Part shown: positions 49,890 to 63,603 of the stretch, piece by piece | Layout: every line of letters begins with the position of its first letter | How positions within the stretch are numbered: position 1 is the stretch's first letter | NCBI RefSeq assembly: GCF_019052805.1 | Contig: NZ_JAHQRJ010000002.1 | Span: 558,001 to 622,000, forward strand | Reading direction: 5' to 3' | Source of the DNA: Noviherbaspirillum sp. L7-7A | Lineage (GTDB): Bacteria; Pseudomonadota; Gammaproteobacteria; Burkholderiales; Burkholderiaceae_D | DNA length: 64,000 bases | The notes under the pieces: model-generated | Told to the model about the DNA's origin: nothing | The model's database searches: none | What the model saw: the letters and a program-made list of their open reading frames with translations, nothing else | Position numbers and translations under genes: made by a program

Positions 49890-50220
49890 ATCGAAGCCGA
49901 AATGCTGGGGAACGGCGCCTTGCCAGGAGGCGCTGTTCCTATGAGGCAGCCGTCAGTCATCGCCTCTTGCTTTGCGGGGCGGCCGTGATTGCCAAAAGAA
50001 ACGCATAATTGTTGCGTCATGGTAACTGCTTTCCGCTCTTATTTCCAAGTGTAATTATTTTGTTGGTGCGATCGTTGTCCAGGCACGCCATCCCGGAAAC
50101 TGAATTACCCTGCCCCGCCTGTGTTTTTGACTATTCCCTTGCACACGAACAAAGGCCGACTGCGGGCTAGAGCGAAAATTGTCAACACCTGTTTTTCACG
50201 GCCAGACACAAAGGAATGCC

Positions 50221-50694
50221 ATGCCTACCTTCACCCTAAACGGTCAGAGCACGACGCTCGACCTTCCCGATGACATGCCGCTGCTCTGGGCAATACGGGA
50301 CGTCGCCGGCCTGACCGGCACCAAATTCGGCTGCGGCATCGCCCAGTGCGGCGCCTGCACGGTCCACCTCGACGGCGAGGCGGTGCGTTCCTGCGTCACG
50401 CCGCTGTCGGCGGTGGCCGGCAAGAAAGTGGTCACCATCGAAGCCATGGCACAGGACCCGGTAGGCCAGAAGGTACAGGCCGCCTGGCGGGAAATCGATG
50501 TGGTCCAGTGCGGCTACTGCCAGTCCGGGCAGGTGATGTCGGCCACCGCGCTGCTGCGCGCCAAGCCAGCGCCCACCGATGCCGACATCGATACCGCGAT
50601 GGCGGGCAATATCTGCCGCTGCGGCACCTATGGCCGCATCCGTACCGCCATCAAGCTGGCTGCCGGCCAGCCGACCAAGGAGCCACGGTCATGA
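50221..50694 (+). CDS. 2Fe-2S subunit of an isoquinoline 1-oxidoreductase-type enzyme (IorA-like)
   Basis: 157 residues with two 2Fe-2S clusters: plant-type ferredoxin cysteines C38, C43, C46 and C58 ([19 protein letters not shown]), and the four-helix-bundle cluster cysteines in CGYCQSG and [12 protein letters not shown] lies five bases upstream of ATG 50221. It transfers electrons from the molybdenum centre of the next gene's product, with which it overlaps by ATGA. It lacks a Tat signal and probably travels with its partner. Confidence 0.9.
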
Positions 50695-52928
50695 ACGACG
50701 ACATTTTTTCCGCCACCCCACAATCGCCAGGGCGCCGCCGTTTCCTGCGGGTTGGCGCCGCCGCTGGCGGCGGCCTGCTGATCGGCTTCGGCCTGGGCGC
50801 GTGCGGGCGCGAGCAGCGCAACGAAGTGCCGGCCGAAGCCGCGGTGGGCAATGCCGCCACCAAGACCTCGGGCGATGCGCCGGGACTGGCGCACAACGCC
50901 TTCATCCGCATCGACCGTGAAGGTCTGGTCACGCTCATCGTGCACAAGGTGGAAATGGGCCAGGGTACTTATACCGCCATGCCGATGCTGCTGGCCGAGG
51001 AGCTGGAAGTCGATCTTTTCAAGGTCAAGCTGGAACAGGCGCCGGCTGACAACAACCTTTACAGCGACCCGCTGCTGGGCGGCCAGGTCACTGGCGGCTC
51101 GACCTCGGTACGCGCATCCTGGGAGCCCCTGCGCCAGGCCGGCGCGGCGGCGCGGCTGATGCTGGTGGAGGCGGCGGCGCAGGCCTGGAAGGTCGATGCT
51201 GCGGGCTGCACTGCGAAGAACGGCATGGTGACCCATGGCGCCAGCGGCCGCACCATGCATTACGGCGAACTGGTCGATGCGGCGGCGAAGCTGCCGGCGC
51301 CCAAGGCCATTGTGCTGAAGAAGCCGGCCGACTTCACCCTGATCGGCAAGAAGCACCAGCGGCTCGATTCGGGCGACAAGGTCAATGGCCAAGCCAAGTT
51401 CGGCATCGACGCGCGGCTACCCAACATGCTGGTGGCCACGGTGGCGGCCTCGCCGGTGCCGGGCGGCGCGCTGCAGTCGGTCGACGAAGCCGCCGCAATG
51501 GCGGTCAAGGGCGTGCGCCAGGTGCTCAAGATCGACAATGCGGTAGCGGTGGTGGGCGAGCATATGTGGGCCGCCAAGCAGGGCCTAGCCGCGCTCAAGC
51601 CCAAATGGTCGGACGGCGCGCATGCCGACATGACCACCGCTTCCATCGTGGCCGACATGAAGGCGGCCGCTGAGAGCGGCAAGGGCGCGGCGGTGGCCCG
51701 CAAGGACGGCGACGTTGGCAAGGAAGCGCCCAAGGGCGGGCAGGTACTGGAAGCGGTCTATGAGATGCCTTTCCTCGCCCATGCCACTATGGAGCCGATG
51801 AACTGCACGGTCGATCTGCGGGAAGACGGCTGCGACCTCTACGTCGGCACCCAGGTGCCGACCTTCGCGCAGGGCGCGGCCGCCAAGATCGCCGGCCTGC
51901 CGCCGGAGAAGGTGAAAGTCCACAATCATTTCCTGGGCGGCGGTTTCGGACGCCGGCTTGAAGTGGACTTCATTGTGCAGGCGGTGGCGTTTGCCAAGCA
52001 GCTGAAGCAGCCGGTCAAGTTTGTCTGGACCCGCGAGGAAGACGTGCAGCATGACATGTACCGGCCCTACTACTACGATCGCCTGGCCGCCACGCTGGAC
52101 GAGAAGGGCAAGCCGCTGTCCTGGTCGCACCGGATTACCGGCTCGTCCATCATGTCGCGCTTTGCGCCGCCGGCAGTGAAGAATGGCGTCGATCCGGATG
52201 CGGTGGAAGGCGCTAAGGACATGCCCTACGCGATTCCGAATGTGATGGTCGACTATGTGCGGCACGAGCCGCCGGTGCCGACCGCATTCTGGCGCGGCGT
52301 CGGTCCGACCCACAATATCTTCGTGGTGGAAAGCTTCATCGATGAACTGGCGGCCGCGGCCAAGCAAGATCCGCTGGTCTACCGGCGCGATCTGCTGGAC
52401 AAGTCGCCCAGGATGCGGGCGGTGCTGAACCTGGCCGCTGAAAAAGCCGGATGGGACCAGCCGCTGGCGCCCATTGCCGGGCGTCGCGTCGGCCGCGGCC
52501 TGTCGACCCAGTTCGCCTTCGGCAGCTACATGGCGCAGGTGGCTGAAGTCTCGGTCGGCGCCGATGGCGAGGTGCGGGTGCACCGAGTGGTGTGCGCGGT
52601 TGATTGCGGACAGGTGGTCAACCCCGACACCGTGGTCGCGCAAATCGAGAGCGGCGTGGTCTTCGGCCTGACGGCGGCGCTATGGAACGAGATCACTTTC
52701 GACAAGGGCCGGGTGCAGCAGTCCAACTTCCATGACTACCGGATGATGCGCATCAACGAGGCGCCGCGCATCGAAGTGTTTATTGCTCAGAGCAGCGATG
52801 CGCCGGGCGGCATCGGCGAGCCGGGCACCTCGGCCACTGCGCCAGCCCTGGCCAACGCGATTTTCGCCGCGACCGGCAAGCGCTTGCGCAAGTTGCCGGT
52901 GGCAGGCGACGCACTGAAGACCGCATGA
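50691..52928 (+). CDS. Molybdopterin subunit of an isoquinoline 1-oxidoreductase-type enzyme (IorB-like)
   Basis: 745 residues of the xanthine oxidase superfamily, single-chain IorB layout. A Tat-like signal ([16 protein letters not shown]) is followed directly by a Cys at GACG, possibly a lipobox. Cofactor contacts: [27 protein letters not shown] and the catalytic Glu in GGIGEPGTS. It should hydroxylate an aromatic/N-heterocyclic or aldehyde substrate outside the cytoplasm, passing electrons to a cytochrome. Substrate cannot be told. It starts inside IorA (ATGA). A terminator follows. Confidence 0.88.
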
Positions 52929-53669: not shown

Positions 53670-54944
53670 CTACAGCAACGTGTCGGCCCAGATATTGCGG
53701 GCCCAGTCCATCGCATAGCGACCCTCCAGCGCATTGGGCGCCGCCGAAAGCCCGCCGCTGCCGGGCACGGCGATCAGGGTCTTTTTCGCTTCGTCATAGC
53801 TGTGGACCGATGCCACATGGATCACGTCCTGGTCGGAGACGAAGCTATAGCAGGTATTGGTCAGAAGCGGATGCGCCGGCGGCGGACGGTCGGCAAGCAG
53901 TTCGATGATGGCTGCCGCGCAGACCTTGGCATGCTGGTTGGCCATATGGGCTGACTTTGGCATCAGCGGCGCGACCTGGATCGCATCGCCCAGCACATGG
54001 ATATGGCGAGCCTGAGTGGATTCGAAGCTCAGGAAATCGACTTCGCACCAGCGCCGGTTGGCATTGGCCAGGCCGGCGCCCGCAGCGATGCTGCCGGCAG
54101 CCTGGGGCGGCAGTAGATTGATCACCGCGCCACTGACTTCCTCCCCCAGTTCGGACACCACCGTCCGCGTCTTGGCGTTCACATCCACCGTGTTGAAGCT
54201 GGGCCGGTAATCGACCATGCCCGGATAGCGTTCGGCCCATACCTTCTTGAACAGCGCGCCCTTCGATACCACGTCCTCGTTGCCATCAAGCAGGATGACG
54301 CGCGATTTCGGCTTGACCTGCTTGAAGTAGTGCGCCACTTGGCAGGCGCGCTCATAGGGACCAGGCGGACAGCGGTAAGGCGCCTGCGGAATCGAGATCA
54401 GGAAAGTTTCGCCGTCTTCCATCGCTTCCAGCTGGCGACGCAGCCCAAGCGTCTGCTCCCCCGCCTTCCAGGCATGCAGGATGCGCTCGCGGGCGCCGGG
54501 CTGGCGCATGCCGGGCAGCCGGTCATACAGGAAGTCGATGCCTGGCGACAGGATCAGCCGGTCATAGCGCAAGGCCTTGCCATTGCCCAGCGTGACCGTG
54601 CGCTTGTCCGGATCGATGCCGGTGGCAAGCTCGCGCACCATGGTGATGCCGCTGCGGCTGGCCAGCTCGCCGTAGCTGATGGTCAGGTCTTCCAGACGGC
54701 GCGATCCGCCCAGCACCAGGTTGGACAGCGGGCAGGAGATGAAGGCCGGATTGGGCTCGACCAGGGTGATATCGATGCTGCCGGCGCTCCACAGGGACAG
54801 ATAACGGGCAGCAGTGGCGCCGCCGTAACCGGCGCCGACTACCACCACTCTGGGACGCGTTTGACCGGCGCCGCTGGCGCGGCTGGCAACAGCCCCGAGC
54901 GCCGCGCCCATGCCCAGCGCCTGAAGAAACTGACGACGTTTCAT
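53670..54944 (-). CDS. Flavocytochrome c sulfide dehydrogenase flavoprotein (FccB/SoxF)
   Basis: 424 residues. A Tat-like N-terminus (MKRRQFLQALGMGAALGAVASRASG), FAD-binding RVVVVGAGYGGATAARYL, and the FCSD-specific C-terminal flavin-binding domain (from about residue 345). Redox-active cysteines are expected at ISCPLSN (about residue 70) and at the second Cys of NTCYSFVS (about 376) or RCPPGPYE. It oxidises sulfide to sulfur/polysulfide in the periplasm, passing electrons to the partner cytochrome encoded 13 bases upstream. Last gene of the sox operon. Confidence 0.88.
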   Translation of the reverse strand: MKRRQFLQALGMGAALGAVASRASGAGQTRPRVVVVGAGYGGATAARYLSLWSAGSIDITLVEPNPAFISCPLSNLVLGGSRRLEDLTISYGELASRSGITMVRELATGIDPDKRTVTLGNGKALRYDRLILSPGIDFLYDRLPGMRQPGARERILHAWKAGEQTLGLRRQLEAMEDGETFLISIPQAPYRCPPGPYERACQVAHYFKQVKPKSRVILLDGNEDVVSKGALFKKVWAERYPGMVDYRPSFNTVDVNAKTRTVVSELGEEVSGAVINLLPPQAAGSIAAGAGLANANRRWCEVDFLSFESTQARHIHVLGDAIQVAPLMPKSAHMANQHAKVCAAAIIELLADRPPPAHPLLTNTCYSFVSDQDVIHVASVHSYDEAKKTLIAVPGSGGLSAAPNALEGRYAMDWARNIWADTLL

Positions 54945-54957
54945 GCTGTTGGCTCCC

Positions 54958-55296
54958 CTATTTTTTCAGTTGTGCCAGATAGCCCGCAATCAGGTCGATC
55001 TGCTCGCTGCTATAACCCTTGGCCAGTTGCTGCATGATGGTGGAGGGCCGGCTGCCATCCTGGAAGGCCTTCATGCTGGCCACCAGTGCATCCCGGCTCT
55101 GCCCTGCCAACGGCGGCAGGCTGCTGCCGGGCGCCGTCCTTCCTCCGGTGCCGTGGCAGCCGGCGCAGCTGGCATAGAGCCTTCGGCCGGCATCCTCGGT
55201 TAACTTCGTCTCGGCCTGCGCCGTGGCCGGGCACTGCGCTGCGAACACGGCAAGCATGATCGCAAGGCGTGCGTTTGCAATAAGGGTTGATGTCAT
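54958..55296 (-). CDS. Class I cytochrome c, partner of flavocytochrome (FccA/SoxE-like)
   Basis: 112 residues from ATG 55296 (AAGGACAGGA upstream; frame open 7 codons more). Signal peptide (LAIMLAVFAAQCPATAQAE), one heme motif CAGCH at about residue 45, and a distal Met expected in the MQQLAKGYS helix. Single-heme, unlike diheme FccA of Allochromatium. It would accept electrons from the flavoprotein and pass them to the respiratory chain. Confidence 0.82.
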   Translation of the reverse strand: MTSTLIANARLAIMLAVFAAQCPATAQAETKLTEDAGRRLYASCAGCHGTGGRTAPGSSLPPLAGQSRDALVASMKAFQDGSRPSTIMQQLAKGYSSEQIDLIAGYLAQLKK

Positions 55297-55351
55297 TCCT
55301 GTCCTTCCGTGAGGCACTGTACTTCCAAAGCCGGCACCTGGTGTGCAGGTC

Positions 55352-56104
55352 CTATGGCCGCACCGCCGGCGCTTCCATCTCCATTCCCCTGGCTCGCTGT
55401 GCCAGGTAGAGTTCCAGTTCTACCAGTTCCAGCGAACCTGCCGGATACGGCGCCGCCCGCACGCCATTGAGGCAGTTGCGCAGACGCCGCTGCAGCGATC
55501 CCATGGCCTGCCATTCAAGCCGGTAGATCGGGTAGCCGGTCGCGTGCGCCTGCGGAATGATGCTGCTGCCCAGGCGCTGTCCCCAGTGCTGGTCGTGGCA
55601 CTGGGCGCAGGACAGATTGAGCTGGCCCATGCGCTGCTGCCAGCGCGCCTGGCCACGTTCGACGAATGGCTGCAGGCGCGCATCGTCCGGCAGCGAAGCC
55701 GCCATGCCGCGCGACTGCAGCGCGATATAGCTTTCCAGGCTCAGCAGCGCCTCGCTCTCGGCCGGCAGTACCGAAGCAGACTGATGCCGCACGCGGCACC
55801 GGTTGATGCGCTGTGCCAGGTTGATCGGGCGTCCTGCCTGGGCATCGAATGCCGGATAGCGGGCTGCCACGCCGCGCATCGCGCCTTCCGCATCGCCGTG
55901 GCAGGAGGCACAGGACTTGCCGTTGCCCTCATCGCTGCGGCGCCAGGCGATCTCGCCTTCCTTCACCCACAGCATGGCCGGATTCTGACTGTCGTCGCGC
56001 TGCATGGCCTGGGTTGACGGTCCCATGAATGCCATGCCCGACTTCCGTTGCGCCGCCGCCGTCAGACTCAGCACGGCGCACAGCATGAAGAGGACAATCC
56101 GCAT
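55352..56104 (-). CDS. soxA: SoxA, diheme cytochrome c of the sulfur-oxidation SoxXA complex
   Basis: 250 residues from ATG 56104, 7 bases after the soxZ stop. Signal peptide (LFMLCAVLSLTAAA), heme motif CASCH (65-69), an axial-ligand type Cys103 (NRCRVR), second heme motif CAQCH (166-170) and Cys211 (RNCLNGVR), which in SoxA is the active-site cysteine persulfide ligand. SoxXA oxidatively attaches thiosulfate to the SoxY cysteine. The diheme form, with both hemes retained, is present here. Confidence 0.9.
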   Translation of the reverse strand: MRIVLFMLCAVLSLTAAAQRKSGMAFMGPSTQAMQRDDSQNPAMLWVKEGEIAWRRSDEGNGKSCASCHGDAEGAMRGVAARYPAFDAQAGRPINLAQRINRCRVRHQSASVLPAESEALLSLESYIALQSRGMAASLPDDARLQPFVERGQARWQQRMGQLNLSCAQCHDQHWGQRLGSSIIPQAHATGYPIYRLEWQAMGSLQRRLRNCLNGVRAAPYPAGSLELVELELYLAQRARGMEMEAPAVRP

Positions 56105-56111
56105 GGCGCTT

Positions 56112-56435
56112 TCAGCCAGTGACCGTGAGCTCAACCGATTCTGTCTGGCTGAAGTTGTTGTCCCCTTCCCAGATAAAGGTCAGCTTGCCGCTTTCGGTAG
56201 CCACCGTATGGAAGATCAGGTTGGGGTTGGCGGCGATCGCCGGGAACAGTTCAGCGCTGAATACGATCTCGCCGTTATAGCGGCAGGTGAAGCGGCGGAT
56301 AATATTGCGCGGCAAAACCTGGCCATCCGCGCCGGGCCGGTAGCCGGTCTCCATGGGATGGCTGATCAGGGTACGGATCTCGATCACCTCGCCGCGCTTG
56401 GCCGAGGCCGGGAGCTTGATCAATGTGCGGGCCAT
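56112..56435 (-). CDS. soxZ: SoxZ, sulfur-carrier partner
   Basis: 107 residues: IKLPASAKRGEVIEIRTLISHPMETGYR and IIRRFTCRYNGEIVFSAELFPAIAANPN are the beta-sandwich of SoxZ, ending FSQTESVELTVTG. It forms a heterodimer with SoxY that carries sulfur intermediates. Its ribosome site GGAGAG overlaps the end of soxY. Confidence 0.92.
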   Translation of the reverse strand: MARTLIKLPASAKRGEVIEIRTLISHPMETGYRPGADGQVLPRNIIRRFTCRYNGEIVFSAELFPAIAANPNLIFHTVATESGKLTFIWEGDNNFSQTESVELTVTG

Positions 56436-56437
56436 GG

Positions 56438-56908
56438 CTAGCTCTCTCCTTCGATGCAGGCGGCCAGCGTGACTACCACGTCTACCGTATCCGACCAGTA
56501 ACTGCCATCGGACAACTTTGCCACCGCGCTCAGCTTTTGCGAAGTGGCCAGGCGTATCCTGGTCGACACTTTTGCGCGGCCGGCGCGCGCACCGAGCGTG
56601 AACCGGGCGACGTCGCGCTGCGGATTGCGTTCATTGAAGATGGCAATGGCGGCCACATGGTCTGCCGCCGTCATGGCGCTGTCGACGCTGACCGTGACAG
56701 GCACCGCATTGCCGTTGTCGACCAGGCTAGCAATGTCAAACTTGACCCGGCCCGGCGTGGGCTTGACGCCGCCGGTCCAGGCCTGTACCGCTGCCGCCAG
56801 TTCGTCGGGCGCGGCGGCGGCAGGCCGCACCAGGATCGTCGCGCCCAACGCAGCGCCGCCGGCCAGCAGGCGGCGCCGTTTCGGGTTGGGGCCGGGTTTC
56901 GCAAACAT
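56438..56908 (-). CDS. soxY: SoxY, sulfur-carrier protein, with atypical C-terminus
   Basis: 156 residues. Tat signal (KRRRLLAGGAALGATILVRPAAAAP), then the SoxY beta-sandwich (VKFDIASLVDNGNAVPVTVSVDS, HVAAIAIFNERNPQRDVARF). Normal SoxY ends in GGCGG with the swinging-arm cysteine. Here the tail is VVVTLAACIEGES: the Cys is in place but the flanking Gly residues are not. The last codons are also the soxZ ribosome site. Whether it still carries sulfur is uncertain. Its ATG overlaps the soxX stop (TGATG). Confidence 0.85.
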   Translation of the reverse strand: MFAKPGPNPKRRRLLAGGAALGATILVRPAAAAPDELAAAVQAWTGGVKPTPGRVKFDIASLVDNGNAVPVTVSVDSAMTAADHVAAIAIFNERNPQRDVARFTLGARAGRAKVSTRIRLATSQKLSAVAKLSDGSYWSDTVDVVVTLAACIEGES

Positions 56909-57399
56909 CAGTTGCCTTCCTTTTCTTTCAGGGTGCGCAGATAGGCCACCACATCCTCGACCTGCTGTGCATCCAGTATCGGCTTGCCGCGCACCGCCGG
57001 GGCGACATTGTTCAAGCCGTCGATCCGATAGTAAGCCGGCATGATGGTGTCCGGATTGATGCGGCCGGCGTCGACGATGCGCAGCCGCAGTTGCGCTTCG
57101 CTCCAGCGGGTGCCGCTGCCGGCCAGGTCGGGCGCCAGGTTGCCCTGGAAGCGCTCCTCCGGCAGCGGCCCGGCGTGGCACAGCAAGCACAGGCCGACCT
57201 GACGGTTGGCGACGATGGCCCGGCCGCGGGCGGCATCTCCCGCCGCCGTTGCAAGCGGCTGCGGTATGCCATCGCCTTCCACCCGGTAAGGCACCAGTCT
57301 GGCTTCCTGCTGCGGCACCTGCAACCCCTGCGCTAGGCCAGGCCAGGGCAATGCCCACAGTAAAGCCCATCCTGCCATCCCCCCCGGCACGCGACGCAT
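56908..57399 (-). CDS. soxX: SoxX, monoheme cytochrome c of SoxXA
   Basis: 163 residues. Signal peptide (GWALLWALPWPGLAQ), heme motif CLLCH at about residue 71, and axial Met in TIMPAYYRID. Pattern GNLAPDLAGSGTRWSEAQLRLRIVDAGRINPDTIMPAYY is classical SoxX. Follows the molybdoenzyme gene by 12 bases. Completes SoxXYZA in this order; soxB, soxC and soxD are not in the window. Confidence 0.9.
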   Translation of the reverse strand: MRRVPGGMAGWALLWALPWPGLAQGLQVPQQEARLVPYRVEGDGIPQPLATAAGDAARGRAIVANRQVGLCLLCHAGPLPEERFQGNLAPDLAGSGTRWSEAQLRLRIVDAGRINPDTIMPAYYRIDGLNNVAPAVRGKPILDAQQVEDVVAYLRTLKEKEGN

Positions 57400-57411
57400 T
57401 GCTGCCTCCGG

Positions 57412-59616
57412 TCAAGCCCTTTTCAGGCTGTGGTTCTTCAGCGGCAAATCCCGTATGCGCTTGCCAGTGGCAGCGAAGATCGCATTGAGCACCGCCGGCG
57501 CCGCCACGGCAATGGTCGGCTCGCCAACCCCGCCCCAGAAGCCGCCGGATGGCACGATGACGGTTTCCACCGCCGGCATCTCATCCATGCGCATTACCTG
57601 GTAGGTGTTGAAGTTCTCCTGCTCCATGCGACCTTCCTTGACAGTGCATTCGCCATACAGCGCGGCCGACAGGCCATAGACGAAGGAGCCCTCCACTTGG
57701 GCTTCGATCTGCTGCGGATTGAGCGCATGGCCGGGGTCGGTCGCGGCGACGATGCGATGGATCTTCAGCGCACCCTCGTCGCTGACCGAGACTTCGGCCA
57801 CCGCTGCCACATAGCTGCCGAACCCCATGGTCTGCGCCACGCCGCGATACACCCCCTTGGGCAAGGGCTTGTCCCAGCCGGCGCGCTCGGCTGCTGCGTT
57901 CAGCACTGCCAGGTGCTTGGGATGATCGGCCATGAGCTTGCGGCGCAGCGCCAGCGGATCCTGCCCGGTCGCATGGGCGACTTCATCCAGGAAGCACTCG
58001 AGATAGATCGCGTTCTGGTTGAGGTTCACGCCACGCCAAAAACCGGGCGGTACCGGTGGATTGCGCATCGCATGGTCTATCAGCAGATTAGGGAAGCTAT
58101 AGCCTATCGAGGCTTCCGGACCGGGCGGGTTCAGGCCCTGGAACACGACCGGGTCCTTGCCGTCCTTGATGTTCTGAGGGAATACCCCCGCAATGATGGA
58201 CTGCCCGGAAATGCGCATCTGCAGCGCAGTGATGTTGCCCTTGTCGTCCAGGCCGGCCGCCAGCTTGCACTGGGTAATCGGATGATAGCGACCGTGCAGC
58301 ATGTCTTCCTCGCGCGACCAGATCAGCTTGATTGGTGTACCCGGCATCTCCCGTGCGATCGCCACTGCTTGCCGCACCCAGTCATGGACCGCGCCGCGAC
58401 GGCCGAAACCGCCGCCCAAATGCAGCTTGTAGACCTCGCATTTCGACGGCGGCAACTCGGCTGCCTCGGCCGCCGCCGCGAGTGCTGCCTCGCCATTCTG
58501 GGTGGGCGTCCAGACCTCGCAGCGCTCCGGCGTCCAGCGTGCCGTCGCATTCATGGTTTCCATCGTAGCGTGGTTCTGGTAAGGGTAGGAGTACACCGCC
58601 TCCACCTTCCGCCTGGCGGTTGCCAGCGCCGCGCCGGCGTCGCCATTGCTGTTTCCCACGGCCGCTTCCTTGGCGTCCAGCCCGGCCTTGAGCGTCTCGG
58701 CGATGCTGGCGCTGGATACCTTCGCATTCGGCCCGTAATCCCATTCGACTTTCAGCGCCTCCAGCGCACTCTTTGCCCGCCACCAGGTATCGGCTACCAC
58801 TGCCACGGCGCTGTCGCCGACCTGTATCACCTTCTTGACGCCGGGACGGTTCTGGACCTCGGCCGCATTGAAGGCTTTCACTTTTCCGCCAAACACCGGG
58901 CAATCGCGGATGGCGGCATTGAGCATGCCCGGCAGCTTCAGGTCCATGCCATAGACCTGGGCGCCAGTGGTCTTGTCTACCGTGTCGAGGCGCGCTAAGC
59001 GCTTGCCCGCGATTTTCCAGTTTTTCGGGTCCTTGAGTTGCACCGATTCCGGCGGCGTCAGGCTGGCCGCGGCCGACGCCACCTTGCCATACGTGGTCTG
59101 GCGTCCGGATGGCTGGTGAGTGATGACGCTGGCTGCCGCCCGGCATTCCGACACGGGCACCTTCCATTCATCGGCCGCTGCCTGTACCAGCATCATGCGC
59201 GCCGTGGCGCCGCCCTTGCGTACATAGTCATGGGATTCGCGGATGCCTCGGCTGCCGCCGGTGGAGAAATTGCCCCAAGCGCGGTTGCGCGCCAGGTTTT
59301 GCCCTGGTGTCGGATATTCGGTTGTTACCTTGGCCCAATCGCAATCCAGTTCTTCGGCCACCAGTTGCGCCAGCCCGGTCAGCGAGCCCTGTCCCATCTC
59401 CGACCGCGCGATCCGGATCACCACCGTGTCGTCAGGCTTGATGACTACCCAGGCATTGACTTCGGGCGCTGCAGCCGCCGTCGCTCCCCCATCTGCAGCA
59501 TTGGCGTAAGGAATATGAAAACCCACCATGAGGCCGCCGAACGCTGCTGCGGTGGTGCCGAGGAAGCGGCGCCTAGATACATTCACTTCGCTGCCATGCG
59601 TGTCAGAGCGGCTCAT
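57412..59616 (-). CDS. Tat-exported molybdopterin oxidoreductase, IorB-like, in the sox operon
   Basis: 734 residues. Twin-arginine signal ([21 protein letters not shown]), xanthine oxidase-type molybdopterin domains with [34 protein letters not shown] and catalytic Glu in GVGEPTIA. Overlaps its 2Fe-2S partner by 4 bases and lies 12 bases before soxX, so it is transcribed with the sox genes. It is a paralogue of the protein at 50691 but clearly diverged. Likely oxidises an aldehyde or N-heterocycle in the periplasm; a sulfur-containing substrate is possible but unproven. Confidence 0.88.
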
Positions 59617-60116
59617 GTCGTGCTCCCGTCGGCATGCTGGATTGCCAGGCCCGCCTGTCGCGTACTGCCGCCCTGCCCTGCCGCCTTGATGGCCGCACGC
59701 ACCCGGTTATAAGTGCCGCAGCGGCAGATGTTGGTGATGGATTGATTGATGTCGGCGTCGGTAGGTTGAGGCTTTTCCTTCAGCAATGCTGCGGCTGCCA
59801 TGATCATGCCGCTCTGACAGAAACCGCATTGCGGTACGTCGAGCGCAACCCAGGCTTTTTGCAGCGGATGGGAGCCGTTGCCGGACAAGCCCTCGATGGT
59901 TACGATCTTTTGCTCGGCAGTCACGGTGGATACCGGCCGCACGCAGGTCCGCACGGGCTCACCATCAATATGCACGGTGCAGGCGCCGCACTGGGCGACG
60001 CCACAGCCATATTTGGTGCCGGTCAGGCCAAGCTGCTCACGCAGCACCCATAACAGAGGCGTGTCGGGTTCGGCTTCGAATTCACGCATTGTCCCGTTGA
60101 CGTTCAGTGTTGCCAT
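59613..60116 (-). CDS. 2Fe-2S subunit, IorA-like, in the sox operon
   Basis: 167 residues, first gene of the unit. Cys pattern [23 protein letters not shown] for the plant-type cluster and CGFCQSG ... NICRCGTY for the second. AGCTGGAGAC precedes ATG 60116. It passes electrons from the molybdenum subunit. C-terminal extension ([21 protein letters not shown]) is longer than in the paralogue at 50221. Confidence 0.9.
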
Positions 60117-60256
60117 GTCTCCAGCTCCATTTTTTGTTTATGAGGTAGTAAAACAGATGCGAATAGGCGGTTTATATTAAGCGTTCCCGGCGCGGTTTGC
60201 AGGATTCATCTCGCTTCCGCATCGATCATCGAGCCCTCTCCTTCATTGGCAAGCCC

Positions 60257-60846: not shown

Positions 60847-62127
60847 GGTGAGTAATTCTGTGAACTTGAACGATGTTAGTCTCTCAGGAGACGACGTGAC
60901 CGCCACTCTGCTTCTCCCGGGCGGGCTTTTCTCCAGCATATCCTTAAAGGTGAGTGTTTTTGTGAAGGACTAGCTGCTGAGATGGCATTTGGCCATGTCT
61001 CATCCAGCTAATGCGTCCTTCTGTCTATCCAAAGGTGAGAAGTTTTGTGTTCTTTATTCATCTCAGGACGCTTCCTGCCATCAAAGGTGAGAAATTTTGT
61101 GAAGAAGCTCAGCATTCGCCATACCTGACCTCCTCATAGACTGCGAAAGGTGAGTAACTTTGTGAACCTGCAGGCTTGAATTCCCCCGATACCCGCAGTC
61201 TTCTGCCTTCAAACGTTCCTATGGTGAGAAATTTTGTGAAGTCTTAGAAAATGAACGAGGCATGAAAGGCAGGATTTCAAAGGTGAGCAAATCTGTGAAG
61301 TGCGCTAGCGCCCTCAGTATTCGCCAAGAAAAAATATTTAATAGAAACAAAGCCTTGGGTGAATTTTTACTGTATTTTTAAAAAGGTGAGAACTTGTGTG
61401 AAGTGAAAATCATGTGAAAACGCAACGATCAGATGGACTGTGAGGTGAGATATGTTGTGAACCTGATCATCGTTACCGCGCAACGGTGAGTGTTTTTGTG
61501 AACATAGCACTTGACTGTGGGGCACCATTGCCTGCTGGATCCAAACCACAGGTAGCGGTAGAACAGTTTGACTGCCATGTGGCGTTCAGGTGAGAAGTTT
61601 TGTGAAGATATCGCACGAGCGTGCTCCGGCAGCTGCTTCTTGATAGCCATATCAAATAAAGGTGAGAAGTTATGTGAACGCCTTCCCCTGTTTTTGAGGT
61701 CGGTCGCTTCGTTCAATGAAAATATCTTTTCCTGGAAACCATTTTTCTCTGACCAGTGCAGTAATTTTGGAAAGCGATTGTTCAATCTGCATCGAGCAGC
61801 GCCTGTACGGCATTGAAACAGGCGGATTCGCTAATAAAAGAATGATTGGTGTGCCTAGACGTGGAGGTGAACAAGCCAAATCCATCACATTGAGAGTTAT
61901 TAGCAGTAAACCCTTGTAAACCTTAACTACCTTAAGGATACCCGCAAGCCCTTGCCAGATAAGGCTCTCCTGCGATTATGGTGAGTATTGCTGTGAACAT
62001 CGGTGAGCATTGCTGTGAACTCTCGTGAGAGCCGAAGTGAAGAGCAGCGAACTATGGTGAGTGGCTCTGTGAACACAGGTGAGTGGACAAGTGAAGCGCT
62101 TTGTTTTTGGGTGAGAGAGTTTGTGAA
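60847..62127 (+). repeat. Iteron array of a plasmid-type replication origin
   Basis: 19-bp direct repeats, consensus GGTGAGNNNTTTTGTGAAS. Starts: 60847, 60949, 61034 (end diverged), 61086, 61149, 61223, 61282, 61385, 61444, 61485, 61589, 61661, 61980, 62002, 62024 (degenerate), 62056, 62078 and 62109. All read in the same direction as the rep gene. The first twelve are 41-104 bp apart; the last six are 22-32 bp apart. An AT-rich stretch at 61325-61385 could be the unwinding element. No DnaA box was found by eye. Rep initiators of the Rep_3 family bind such repeats. Confidence 0.92.
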
Positions 62128-62169
62128 GCCGTATTTTTCGGGCTTATGGTGATTGCACAACGAAGTCCG

Positions 62170-62181
62170 TTCACCGGTGAA
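62170..62181. promoter_or_regulatory. Palindrome of half-iterons, probable rep operator
   Basis: TTCACCGGTGAA is a perfect 12-bp palindrome built of two iteron halves (GGTGA) facing each other. In Rep_3-type plasmids such inverted half-iterons are bound by Rep dimers that repress rep. A further CACC lies at 62201. Confidence 0.55.
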
Positions 62182-62247
62182 AAAATATTTGCCCAACTTT
62201 CACCTTATAGGCATGATGGCAATCTCCGCGTTCTGTCCAGCATCCGT

Positions 62248-63603
62248 ATGGCCACATCCAAAAAGCCTAAAAAGGCACCGAACTCGACTGCGCTTGCCGT
62301 ATTGAGCCCCGAGCAACCGGAGTTGCTTGCATCCGAATTCAGGAAAGCCAACGACGCGATCGGTTTCCGTGTTGTGGAAGGCAAGTTCTCGCTGCTGTCG
62401 CGTCGTATTTATAACGCCTTTATCTTCCGCGCCCAGGAAGTTGGCAAGACCGGTGTCGATGCGCCGGCCGATGTCCCGGGTTTCGAGGAATACTACTGGA
62501 TACGCATGGCTGATCTCTGTGCCAACACGGAGTACACCAGCCGAGACTATGAGTTTTTCAAGGAGCATGCAGAGGCGCTGCAGAACATCAAGGTGGAAGC
62601 GACTTCCGACAAGATGTGGGCAAGCGAGCGCCTGCTGGCAGGTCTGACCATCTTCAATACCTCGGGATTGCGCAACAAGGGTGGCACCGTGTTCATCGGC
62701 TTTGCTTTTCCGCCTCAGGTGAAGGAAAAGGTGCTCAAACCCGATACCTATACCAAGCTCAGTCTCTACTATCAGGCTGTATTGCGCAGTGCGCACAGCC
62801 TTGCCTTGTATGAAGTGTGCCGCCGCTATGCAACCAGCCCTTCCCACCTGACCAACCGCGACAGCTGGCAGGAGTGGTATCACGTCCTGTCAGGAAATTC
62901 GATCAAGGACGTAGTGCTTCCCGAATACAAGTACTTCAAGCGCGACATGATCGTGAAGGCACTGTCCGAGATTAACAGCGTGACCGACATCGACGTCGAA
63001 CTGATCGAAACCAAGCGAGGCCGCAAGGTGGAGGAAATACAGTTCCGGGTGCAGTTAAAGGCGCAGGCCTCACTGCTGGAACCAGGTGCCGCTATCGTCA
63101 TCGATTCATCCGTAATCGAACGCATGCTACGTCTGGGGGTCAGCGAGGCCGACGCGAAGGAATACTATTCCAACTACGAAGAAAAATTGCTGCTGGCTAC
63201 CATTGATTTTGTCGAGAAGCGCATCAAGAAAGGGCCGAATGTCGATGCACCGGCTGGATATTTCCGAACCGCATTGCAAAAGGGTTTTGCCACCGTGGCC
63301 CCTGTTGCGCAGCCGTTAAGCAAAAACAAACCTGCGTCCAAGCCCAGAAAGGGATATCGCGAACGGTTCATCGCAGCGCGCAATCAGGAAGCACTGCGCT
63401 ATTACGGCGAACTGTCCGCGCAAGAACAGACCAGCCTGTTCAACGAGTTTTCCGTCCAAGTCGATCGCAGCATCAAGCCCCACCTGAAAAAGGGTCTGAA
63501 TTCTCCTATGGTCAGCGCTGCATTTGCTGACTGGCTTGCGACTCGCACTTGGGGAGAAGTGACAGATGCTGCAGTGCTGGATTTCGCTGAACTGGATGGC
63601 TGA
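62248..63603 (+). CDS. Rep_3-family replication initiator
   Basis: 451 residues from ATG 62248 (in-frame ATG 62146 would include the palindrome and is less likely; frame open to 62101). Two winged-helix domains typical of RepA/RepB initiators: FRVVEGKFSLLSRRIYNAFIFRAQ ... EYYWIRMADLCANTEYTSRDYEFFKEH, and SLALYEVCRRYATSPSHLTNRDSWQEWYHVLSGN ... DMIVKALSEIN. A further basic C-terminal domain (SKNKPASKPRKGYRERF) follows, as in the long initiators of Burkholderiales secondary replicons. Binds the upstream iterons to open the origin. Confidence 0.88.
   Translation: MATSKKPKKAPNSTALAVLSPEQPELLASEFRKANDAIGFRVVEGKFSLLSRRIYNAFIFRAQEVGKTGVDAPADVPGFEEYYWIRMADLCANTEYTSRDYEFFKEHAEALQNIKVEATSDKMWASERLLAGLTIFNTSGLRNKGGTVFIGFAFPPQVKEKVLKPDTYTKLSLYYQAVLRSAHSLALYEVCRRYATSPSHLTNRDSWQEWYHVLSGNSIKDVVLPEYKYFKRDMIVKALSEINSVTDIDVELIETKRGRKVEEIQFRVQLKAQASLLEPGAAIVIDSSVIERMLRLGVSEADAKEYYSNYEEKLLLATIDFVEKRIKKGPNVDAPAGYFRTALQKGFATVAPVAQPLSKNKPASKPRKGYRERFIAARNQEALRYYGELSAQEQTSLFNEFSVQVDRSIKPHLKKGLNSPMVSAAFADWLATRTWGEVTDAAVLDFAELDG

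Follow-up and report, generated by a model that had tools for sequence, protein, structure and literature searches.

Known systems related to the locus

Enzymes of the xanthine oxidase family hydroxylate carbon using water, and flavocytochrome c sulfide dehydrogenase (FCSD) oxidises sulfide, passing the electrons to cytochrome c. In the Sox system of thiosulfate oxidation, SoxXA joins thiosulfate to a cysteine of SoxY, and incomplete Sox systems also lack SoxCD, as described in passages of PMC9959259. SoxYZ-type carriers are also found in other settings: those of family TIGR04557 are fused SoxYZ proteins encoded beside pyrroloquinoline quinone enzymes and SoxH, and passages of PMC4782131 describe SAR324 bins with a flavocytochrome c beside SoxYZ and no further sox subunits, proposed as a novel mechanism. 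An isoquinoline 1-oxidoreductase is reported separately from SAR324 draft genomes in the same passages, where it is not placed beside soxYZ. Here, we describe an operon of Noviherbaspirillum sp. L7-7A that joins a molybdenum hydroxylase (IorAB), Sox proteins and a flavocytochrome c. It lies in a stretch of 64,000 nucleotides (contig NZ_JAHQRJ010000002.1, positions 558,001 to 622,000), hereafter the window, and consists of eight minus-strand genes in one tight run (53670-60116):

59613..60116, minus strand: iorA, iorA-like [2Fe-2S] small subunit of the xanthine oxidase family (Fer2 and Fer2_2 above the gathering cutoff)
57412..59616, minus strand: iorB, iorB-like molybdenum-binding large subunit (MoCoBD_1 and MoCoBD_2 above cutoff; catalytic-glutamate motif FWGGVGEP)
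56908..57399, minus strand: soxX, single-heme cytochrome c (TIGR04485, 78.6 bits, cutoff 61)
56438..56908, minus strand: soxY paralog with the arm VTLAACIEGES (TIGR04487, 203.8 bits, cutoff 172)
56112..56435, minus strand: soxZ (TIGR04490, 77.5 bits, cutoff 76; PF08770 above cutoff)
55352..56104, minus strand: soxA, with two CxxCH hemes (TIGR04484, 223 bits, cutoff 110)
54958..55296, minus strand: small c-type cytochrome in the place of fccA, with one CxxCH (Cytochrom_C above cutoff)
53670..54944, minus strand: fccB, flavoprotein of FCSD (FCSD_central, 142.8 bits; FCSD-flav_bind, 85 bits)

The tight packing on one strand reported in an initial annotation was confirmed for all eight genes, with junctions ranging from a 4-bp overlap (iorA/iorB) to a 55-bp gap (soxA/cytochrome c). 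Genes soxX and soxY overlap by 1 bp (TGATG), and the other gaps measure 12 bp (iorB/soxX), 2 bp (soxY/soxZ), 7 bp (soxZ/soxA, provided that soxA starts at the ATG at 56104) and 13 bp (cytochrome c/fccB). Inspection by eye predicted twin-arginine leaders for IorB (SRRRFLG), SoxY (KRRRLL) and FccB (KRRQFL) and ordinary signal peptides for SoxX, SoxA and the small cytochrome. None was seen by eye in IorA or SoxZ, which would be exported with IorB and SoxY, respectively. Promoter and terminator counts were no higher than in shuffled controls, and no Rfam match was found.

The operon shares with the Sox thiosulfate system the heme and cysteine positions of SoxXA and a SoxYZ carrier with an arm cysteine. 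It differs by the lack of SoxB and SoxC, both in the operon and in its genome (G000), by AACIE in place of GGCGG, and by the molybdenum hydroxylase encoded within it. IorAB is similar to the 8gy3/isoquinoline 1-oxidoreductase type in its [2Fe-2S] and molybdenum subunits, twin-arginine leader and GxGEP motif, whereas the operon IorB forms its own clade, has a tryptophan, Trp694, five residues before the catalytic glutamate, Glu699, and is linked to SoxYZ; no cytochrome domain was found in it. With FccAB/SoxEF the likeness lies in FccB, whose three cysteines align with those of 3vrd and which presumably resembles SoxF of sox operons; here, however, the pair is encoded inside the operon and its cytochrome is small, with one heme. 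As in TIGR04557, a SoxYZ-type carrier is tied to a periplasmic dehydrogenase, but SoxY and SoxZ are separate proteins and their partner is a molybdenum enzyme. SAR324 might hold the same system. No description of iorAB with soxXYZA was found in a literature search that covered part of the relevant papers.

Conservation and forms of the iorAB-sox junction

A SoxY scan of genome contigs yielded 33 loci. When the window proteins were used as queries, 30 of the 32 loci L062-L093 showed a co-directional iorB ahead of soxXYZ, four of them with the cytochrome-fccB pair between iorB and soxXYZ. The two remaining loci, L066 and L092, are cut by a contig end and start with soxX. The 33rd locus, L094, is only distantly related (29% identity) and lacks iorAB. 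The gene order of the operon is not due to chance. Conserved iorAB-sox synteny, proposed as a check in the initial annotation, was also observed on a larger scale, since 83 of the 111 distinct loci found via the operon SoxY have iorB upstream of soxY. A locus counts as linked here if IorB matches on the strand of soxY no more than about 4.5 kb upstream of it, and the 111 loci, gathered by SoxY similarity, are not a random sample. Among the 28 unlinked loci, 12 have an arm other than GGC, and four of these (L149, L181, L066 and L092) are cut by contig ends.

The linked loci occur in two main forms, 64 with soxA nearby and 19 without (one of them, L082, being cut by a contig end). In L210, soxXA is present and lies beyond fccB. 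The smaller module, without soxA nearby, shows which two components are invariant, namely the molybdenum enzyme and the carrier, iorAB-soxYZ being the core shared by all forms. Four genomes (G496, G534, G628 and G714) contain the small form plus a separate soxXYZA with a TACLD arm. Three others (G658, G886 and G922) have an AACIE-like soxXYZA with no iorAB seen beside it (for G922 the view upstream of soxX is limited to about 2 kb by the contig, L198), and all three encode a WGG-type IorB (63% identity) elsewhere.

The finding is real and the module is widespread. Of 399 genomes sampled at order level, 76 matched TIGR04487 (E <= 1e-20), 25 of them above cutoff; among 240 genomes from the class of G792 (Falsiroseomonas), the corresponding numbers were 46 (E <= 1e-25) and 14. 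Only G000 scored over the TIGR04487 cutoff in a class-level sample of 369 genomes around the window. The distribution is patchy in the window's genus, where the operon was present in two of the four genomes examined. No conserved flanking substrate genes were found: the common flanking families, such as cluster 6 (21 loci) and cluster 7 (13 loci), appeared by eye to be solute-binding proteins and short-chain dehydrogenases, and other families recurred in at most seven loci. Because none of the flanking families is found throughout the loci, the module stands alone. Likewise, no CxxCH gene near the iorAB-soxYZ loci passed a crude filter on same-strand frames.

The SoxY paralog and its arm

The gene labelled soxY in the initial annotation belongs by score to a paralog family, NCBIfam TIGR04487 ('SoxY-related AACIE arm protein'). 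It reaches 203.8 bits with this model, whose cutoff is 172, but falls short of the cutoff of 125 for true SoxY, TIGR04488, at 88 bits. Its C-terminus reads VTLAACIEGES, compared with GGCGG in SoxY of the thiosulfate pathway. An equivalent operon on a plasmid of Methylobacterium sp. NMS14P is annotated with the AACIE name for the gene between soxX and soxZ, and there soxX-paralog-soxZ stand behind iorAB and a cytochrome-FccB pair. The paralog is thus already recognised and named by NCBI, but the name covers one protein only; our description extends to the whole operon, to its iorAB partner and to the iorAB-soxYZ module.

The GGC arm was found in 0 of 83 iorB-linked SoxYs versus 16 of 28 unlinked ones. 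While GGCGG is lost, all 62 iorB-linked SoxYs compared retain the cysteine of the arm. Arms of related loci vary, with examples such as SACLD, TACLD, ITGCG and SACG. A tree of the SoxY and SoxZ bodies (106 rows, leaving out L149, L181, L066 and L092, at contig ends, and L210, with an extended C-terminus) required one arm change and six linkage changes.

SoxXA, the cytochrome and FccB

Alignment of SoxA with the diheme SoxA 1h31 revealed two CxxCH hemes and a cysteine matching the conserved C-terminal one, and the SoxA cysteines and heme histidines are conserved at 97% or more over 53 loci. SoxXA has the hemes and active-site cysteines of canonical Sox. In the small cytochrome, CxxCH and one methionine are conserved over 13 loci, as are the three cysteines of FccB, whose best solved relatives are 3vrd, 5n1t and 1fcd. 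FccB combines the domains and cysteines of FCSD and may have its sulfide:cytochrome c activity. Because heme ligands and cysteines are kept, nothing in these sequences (SoxA, SoxX, cytochrome and FccB) suggests decay.

The coupling to a sulfide dehydrogenase put forward in the initial annotation is supported by genome co-occurrence. In the 399-genome sample, a TIGR04487 match was accompanied by FCSD in 69 of 76 genomes, and 125 of the 323 genomes without a match had FCSD. These counts are inflated by kinship; by genus, a hand count gave 30/31 versus 54/128. Among genomes lacking soxB, the contrast was 20/22 versus 39/190. The set with E <= 1e-20 takes in some genomes of other types, such as G224 (SoxY ending in SGCGM, L142), and FCSD also associates with soxB itself. 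In the first carrier set, 33 of 39 genomes had FCSD, the misses being G764, G768, G778, G781, G782 and G794.

The fccAB genes occupy at least three positions: after soxA (window), between iorB and soxX (e.g. L086, L089, L090 and L093) and before iorA (L072). Their presence or absence changes 13 times on a tree of 63 loci, from which L149, L181, L066, L092, L210 and L142 were left out. That the same pair has been joined repeatedly at different positions supports a shared function. Across 41 loci, soxB was absent in nine and present in three with fccAB, compared with five and 24 without (Fisher p 0.0008, on raw counts). A role of the operon fccAB as a replacement for SoxB was nevertheless rejected, as independent pairs on the tree were not significant, and it stays a hint.

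SoxB and SoxC in carrier genomes

The source genome G000 (5.22 Mb, three contigs, 99.97% complete) contains no match to SoxB (TIGR04486), and its single SoxC match (TIGR04555) reaches 21 bits where the cutoff is 420; no separate search was made for SoxD. Its one FCSD match is that of the operon. The absence of soxB and soxCD claimed in the initial annotation, and the proposed check for such genes elsewhere in the genome, are borne out for the operon and G000 as far as SoxB and SoxC are concerned (no SoxB, no SoxC above cutoff). Complete oxidation of thiosulfate to sulfate by the known route is therefore not expected in G000, and this candidate was rejected.

The absence does not hold as a rule for every carrier. 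SoxB scored above cutoff in 18 of 32 carrier genomes (20 counting two with fragmented matches), and weak matches or none were found in the other 12, seven of which are isolates (L063, L065, L068, L071, L089, L090 and L091). The cluster thus does not depend on SoxB. It was seen in none of the 83 iorB-linked stretches, and 12 iorB-unlinked loci have it. In G719, from the window's family, SoxB and SoxC are encoded on the operon's contig, about 10-15 kb beyond iorA, so such a system and this operon can be neighbours. Since SoxB is often present in other carriers, and near the operon in G719, the expression 'Sox without SoxB' is limited to G000 and to the operon itself.

G000 also encodes another SoxY-domain protein, an apparent fused SoxYZ of 282 aa (C2:487835-488161, locus L001) adjoining a metallo-beta-lactamase-like gene. 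It resembles the carriers found beside quinoprotein dehydrogenases, a likeness to TIGR04557 that is based on appearance, not on a score against that model.

IorAB and its relatives

The best solved relative of IorB is 8gy3, the large subunit of an aldehyde dehydrogenase (265 bits). The two molybdenum-binding domains, the [2Fe-2S] subunit and the glutamate in GxGEP place IorAB in the xanthine oxidase family, IorAB/aldehyde dehydrogenase type, whose molybdenum centre needs a terminal sulfido ligand. The motif WGGxGEP surrounds the catalytic glutamate in 82 of the 83 distinct iorB-linked loci, L121 (PGGIGEP) being the exception, and in 83 of 85 when duplicate loci are counted. Xanthine dehydrogenase in the strict sense was rejected (XdhA NF043082, 185 bits, cutoff 780). 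Carbon monoxide dehydrogenase, to which a cysteine loop belongs, was rejected as well: its models scored far below cutoff and the sequence has GFWRGV.

In a FastTree phylogeny of IorB rooted on three rows (Agrobacterium and L218 left out), the deep WGG-type branches are soxYZ-linked and stand-alone rows are nested inside them, so that loss of linkage is the simpler history. Locus L219 has iorB followed by soxXYZA and fccB. WGG-type IorB at 50-52% identity was also found in G360 and G995, whose SoxYs end in GGAGACG and GGCGG, respectively. Among 34 control genomes for this IorB type, to which G360 and G995 belong, G923 proved to be a carrier (L224); SoxY arms were not viewed for at least seven controls (G831, G796, G984, G865, G1026, G860 and G912) and for the Burkholderiales controls.

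Two neighbourhoods of such enzymes may be mentioned. In G360, a genome of the same class as the window, the distant WGG-type iorAB (L256, 5916-10333) lies behind genes resembling by eye XdhC and a MobA-like transferase, and soxYZ with the GGAGACG arm is on a different contig. On the plasmid of Methylosinus trichosporium OB3b (L217), iorAB stands behind an annotated multiheme cytochrome and an arylsulfatase, and an aryl-sulfate sulfotransferase is encoded farther upstream, which may point to an aromatic substrate that contains sulfur.

Possible function and alternative explanations

The operon is tentatively interpreted as a periplasmic, SoxB-independent variant of Sox in which IorAB acts on a thiol bound to SoxYZ and FccAB removes the sulfur. 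The initial annotation had considered organosulfur compounds or sulfide as substrates, with an electron path that the molybdoenzyme and the cytochromes would share; the substrate is probably a sulfur compound other than thiosulfate, most likely an organic thiol carried on SoxYZ, though it could be different. This reading is favoured by the shared iorAB-soxYZ core, the WGG-type IorB encoded elsewhere in the three genomes that show no iorAB beside soxXYZA, the retained arm cysteine, the co-occurrence with FCSD and the varied placement of fccAB, and the lack of SoxB in the iorB-linked stretches and in G000. SoxXA would join the thiol, most likely R-CH2-SH, to the arm cysteine of SoxY as a disulfide, with two electrons passing to heme. 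The exported IorAB would then hydroxylate the carbon adjacent to sulfur, the carbon would depart as an aldehyde and a persulfide would stay on SoxY. FccAB, or in other species a Sox/FCSD system encoded elsewhere, would take off the sulfide-level sulfur, and the electrons of all three enzymes would flow to c-type cytochromes. In this strict form, as a Sox system that oxidises carbon instead of sulfur by attacking a C-H bond of the disulfide-bound thiol and hands the persulfide to FccAB, the proposal is speculative and seems rather unlikely. Methanethiol oxidases of Rhodobacteraceae that yield sulfane sulfur are reported in PMC10936201, which makes such a product plausible here.

Several observations weigh against a SoxYZ-bound substrate. 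WGG-type IorAB with 60-71% identity occurs on plasmids of Sinorhizobium, Rhizobium, Agrobacterium and Methylosinus, and tblastn found no sox genes within 5-10 kb on each side of these genes at seven loci; a cytochrome gene adjoins iorAB in all five annotated ones. An obligate partnership is doubtful, as some rhizobial plasmids have a similar IorAB without sox within 5-10 kb; should such a SoxYZ be missing from those genomes altogether, IorAB would be able to use a free substrate. Seven plasmid records match the operon SoxY (E <= 1e-12), none of them from Sinorhizobium or Rhizobium, and the Methylosinus match adjoins soxZ and soxB about 95 kb from iorAB. Furthermore, besides the truncated L082, soxA was not seen near iorAB-soxYZ in 18 loci. 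Finally, the arm motif was rejected as independent proof of functional linkage, because on the tree a single change in one lineage accounts for its agreement with iorAB.

These plasmid copies, together with a closest solved relative that is an aldehyde dehydrogenase, are compatible with an IorAB whose substrate, probably an aldehyde, thioaldehyde or heterocycle, is a free small molecule that it oxidises by itself, while the Sox and Fcc proteins only capture and oxidise the released sulfide or thiol. This explanation is possible but unlikely, given that the stand-alone IorBs are nested among deep soxYZ-linked branches and that the carrier is the only Sox part seen in the iorAB-soxYZ loci.

An inorganic sulfur pathway appears improbable. 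SoxXA would load thiosulfate or sulfide on SoxYZ, IorAB would replace the SoxCD sulfane dehydrogenase and FccAB would oxidise sulfide, which is in line with the heme and cysteine positions that SoxXA and FccB share with solved relatives and with the absence of SoxC in G000. However, without SoxB nothing known frees sulfate from SoxY, some carriers with SoxB and SoxC above cutoff keep the cluster too, and the xanthine oxidase family is, to our knowledge, known for carbon hydroxylation, not for oxidation of sulfane sulfur.

It is quite improbable that SoxYZ is a service factor giving sulfane sulfur to the molybdenum centre of IorAB or protecting the enzyme: iorAB-soxYZ without soxA nearby is a frequent arrangement, and SoxYZ-like carriers beside another class of periplasmic dehydrogenases have been suggested to form disulfides or to protect the cofactor (passages of PMC12997753), but rhizobial stand-alone IorAB would need to manage without SoxYZ, unless soxYZ is elsewhere, and the FccAB and SoxXA of the operon suggest energy metabolism over repair.

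Neighbouring genes and upstream sequences

A TAATAT box (60174-60179) is located upstream of iorA in the window. The same box occurs 46-113 bases before iorA in eight loci of the window's family or of Oxalobacteraceae (WIN, L173, L063, L071, L174, L175, L135 and L178) and is lacking there in L065, L072, L176 and L177. Overall, 11 of 77 loci have it, including L193, whose upstream stretch was not trimmed to 300 bases; the expectation is 0.006 per 300 bases.

A second iorAB pair (50179-52928, plus strand) lies past fccB, at a distance of less than 1 kb, and converges with the operon. Its IorB (50694-52928) shares 42% identity with the operon IorB and has the motif PGGIGEP; a similar second pair also adjoins the operon in L173, a locus from the same genus. 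At 62101-63603 (plus strand), a 500-aa frame resembles by eye a plasmid replication initiator, and contig C2, of 710 kb, could represent a second replicon or a megaplasmid.

Implications

Genes of the sox set are widely used as markers of thiosulfate oxidation. Simple markers for the variant are the arm AAC[ILV][ED] and the IorB motif WGGxGEP, with the caveat that arms vary and that WGGxGEP is also present in some IorBs whose genes do not adjoin this SoxYZ. Should the thiol mechanism be true, it would represent a carrier-bound, oxygen-free route for breaking C-S bonds. If the variant handles a compound other than thiosulfate, thiosulfate oxidation would be overestimated from counts of soxA, soxX, soxY and soxZ in Burkholderiales and Alphaproteobacteria, and a step in the turnover of sulfur, perhaps in organic form, would still be without an assigned enzyme.

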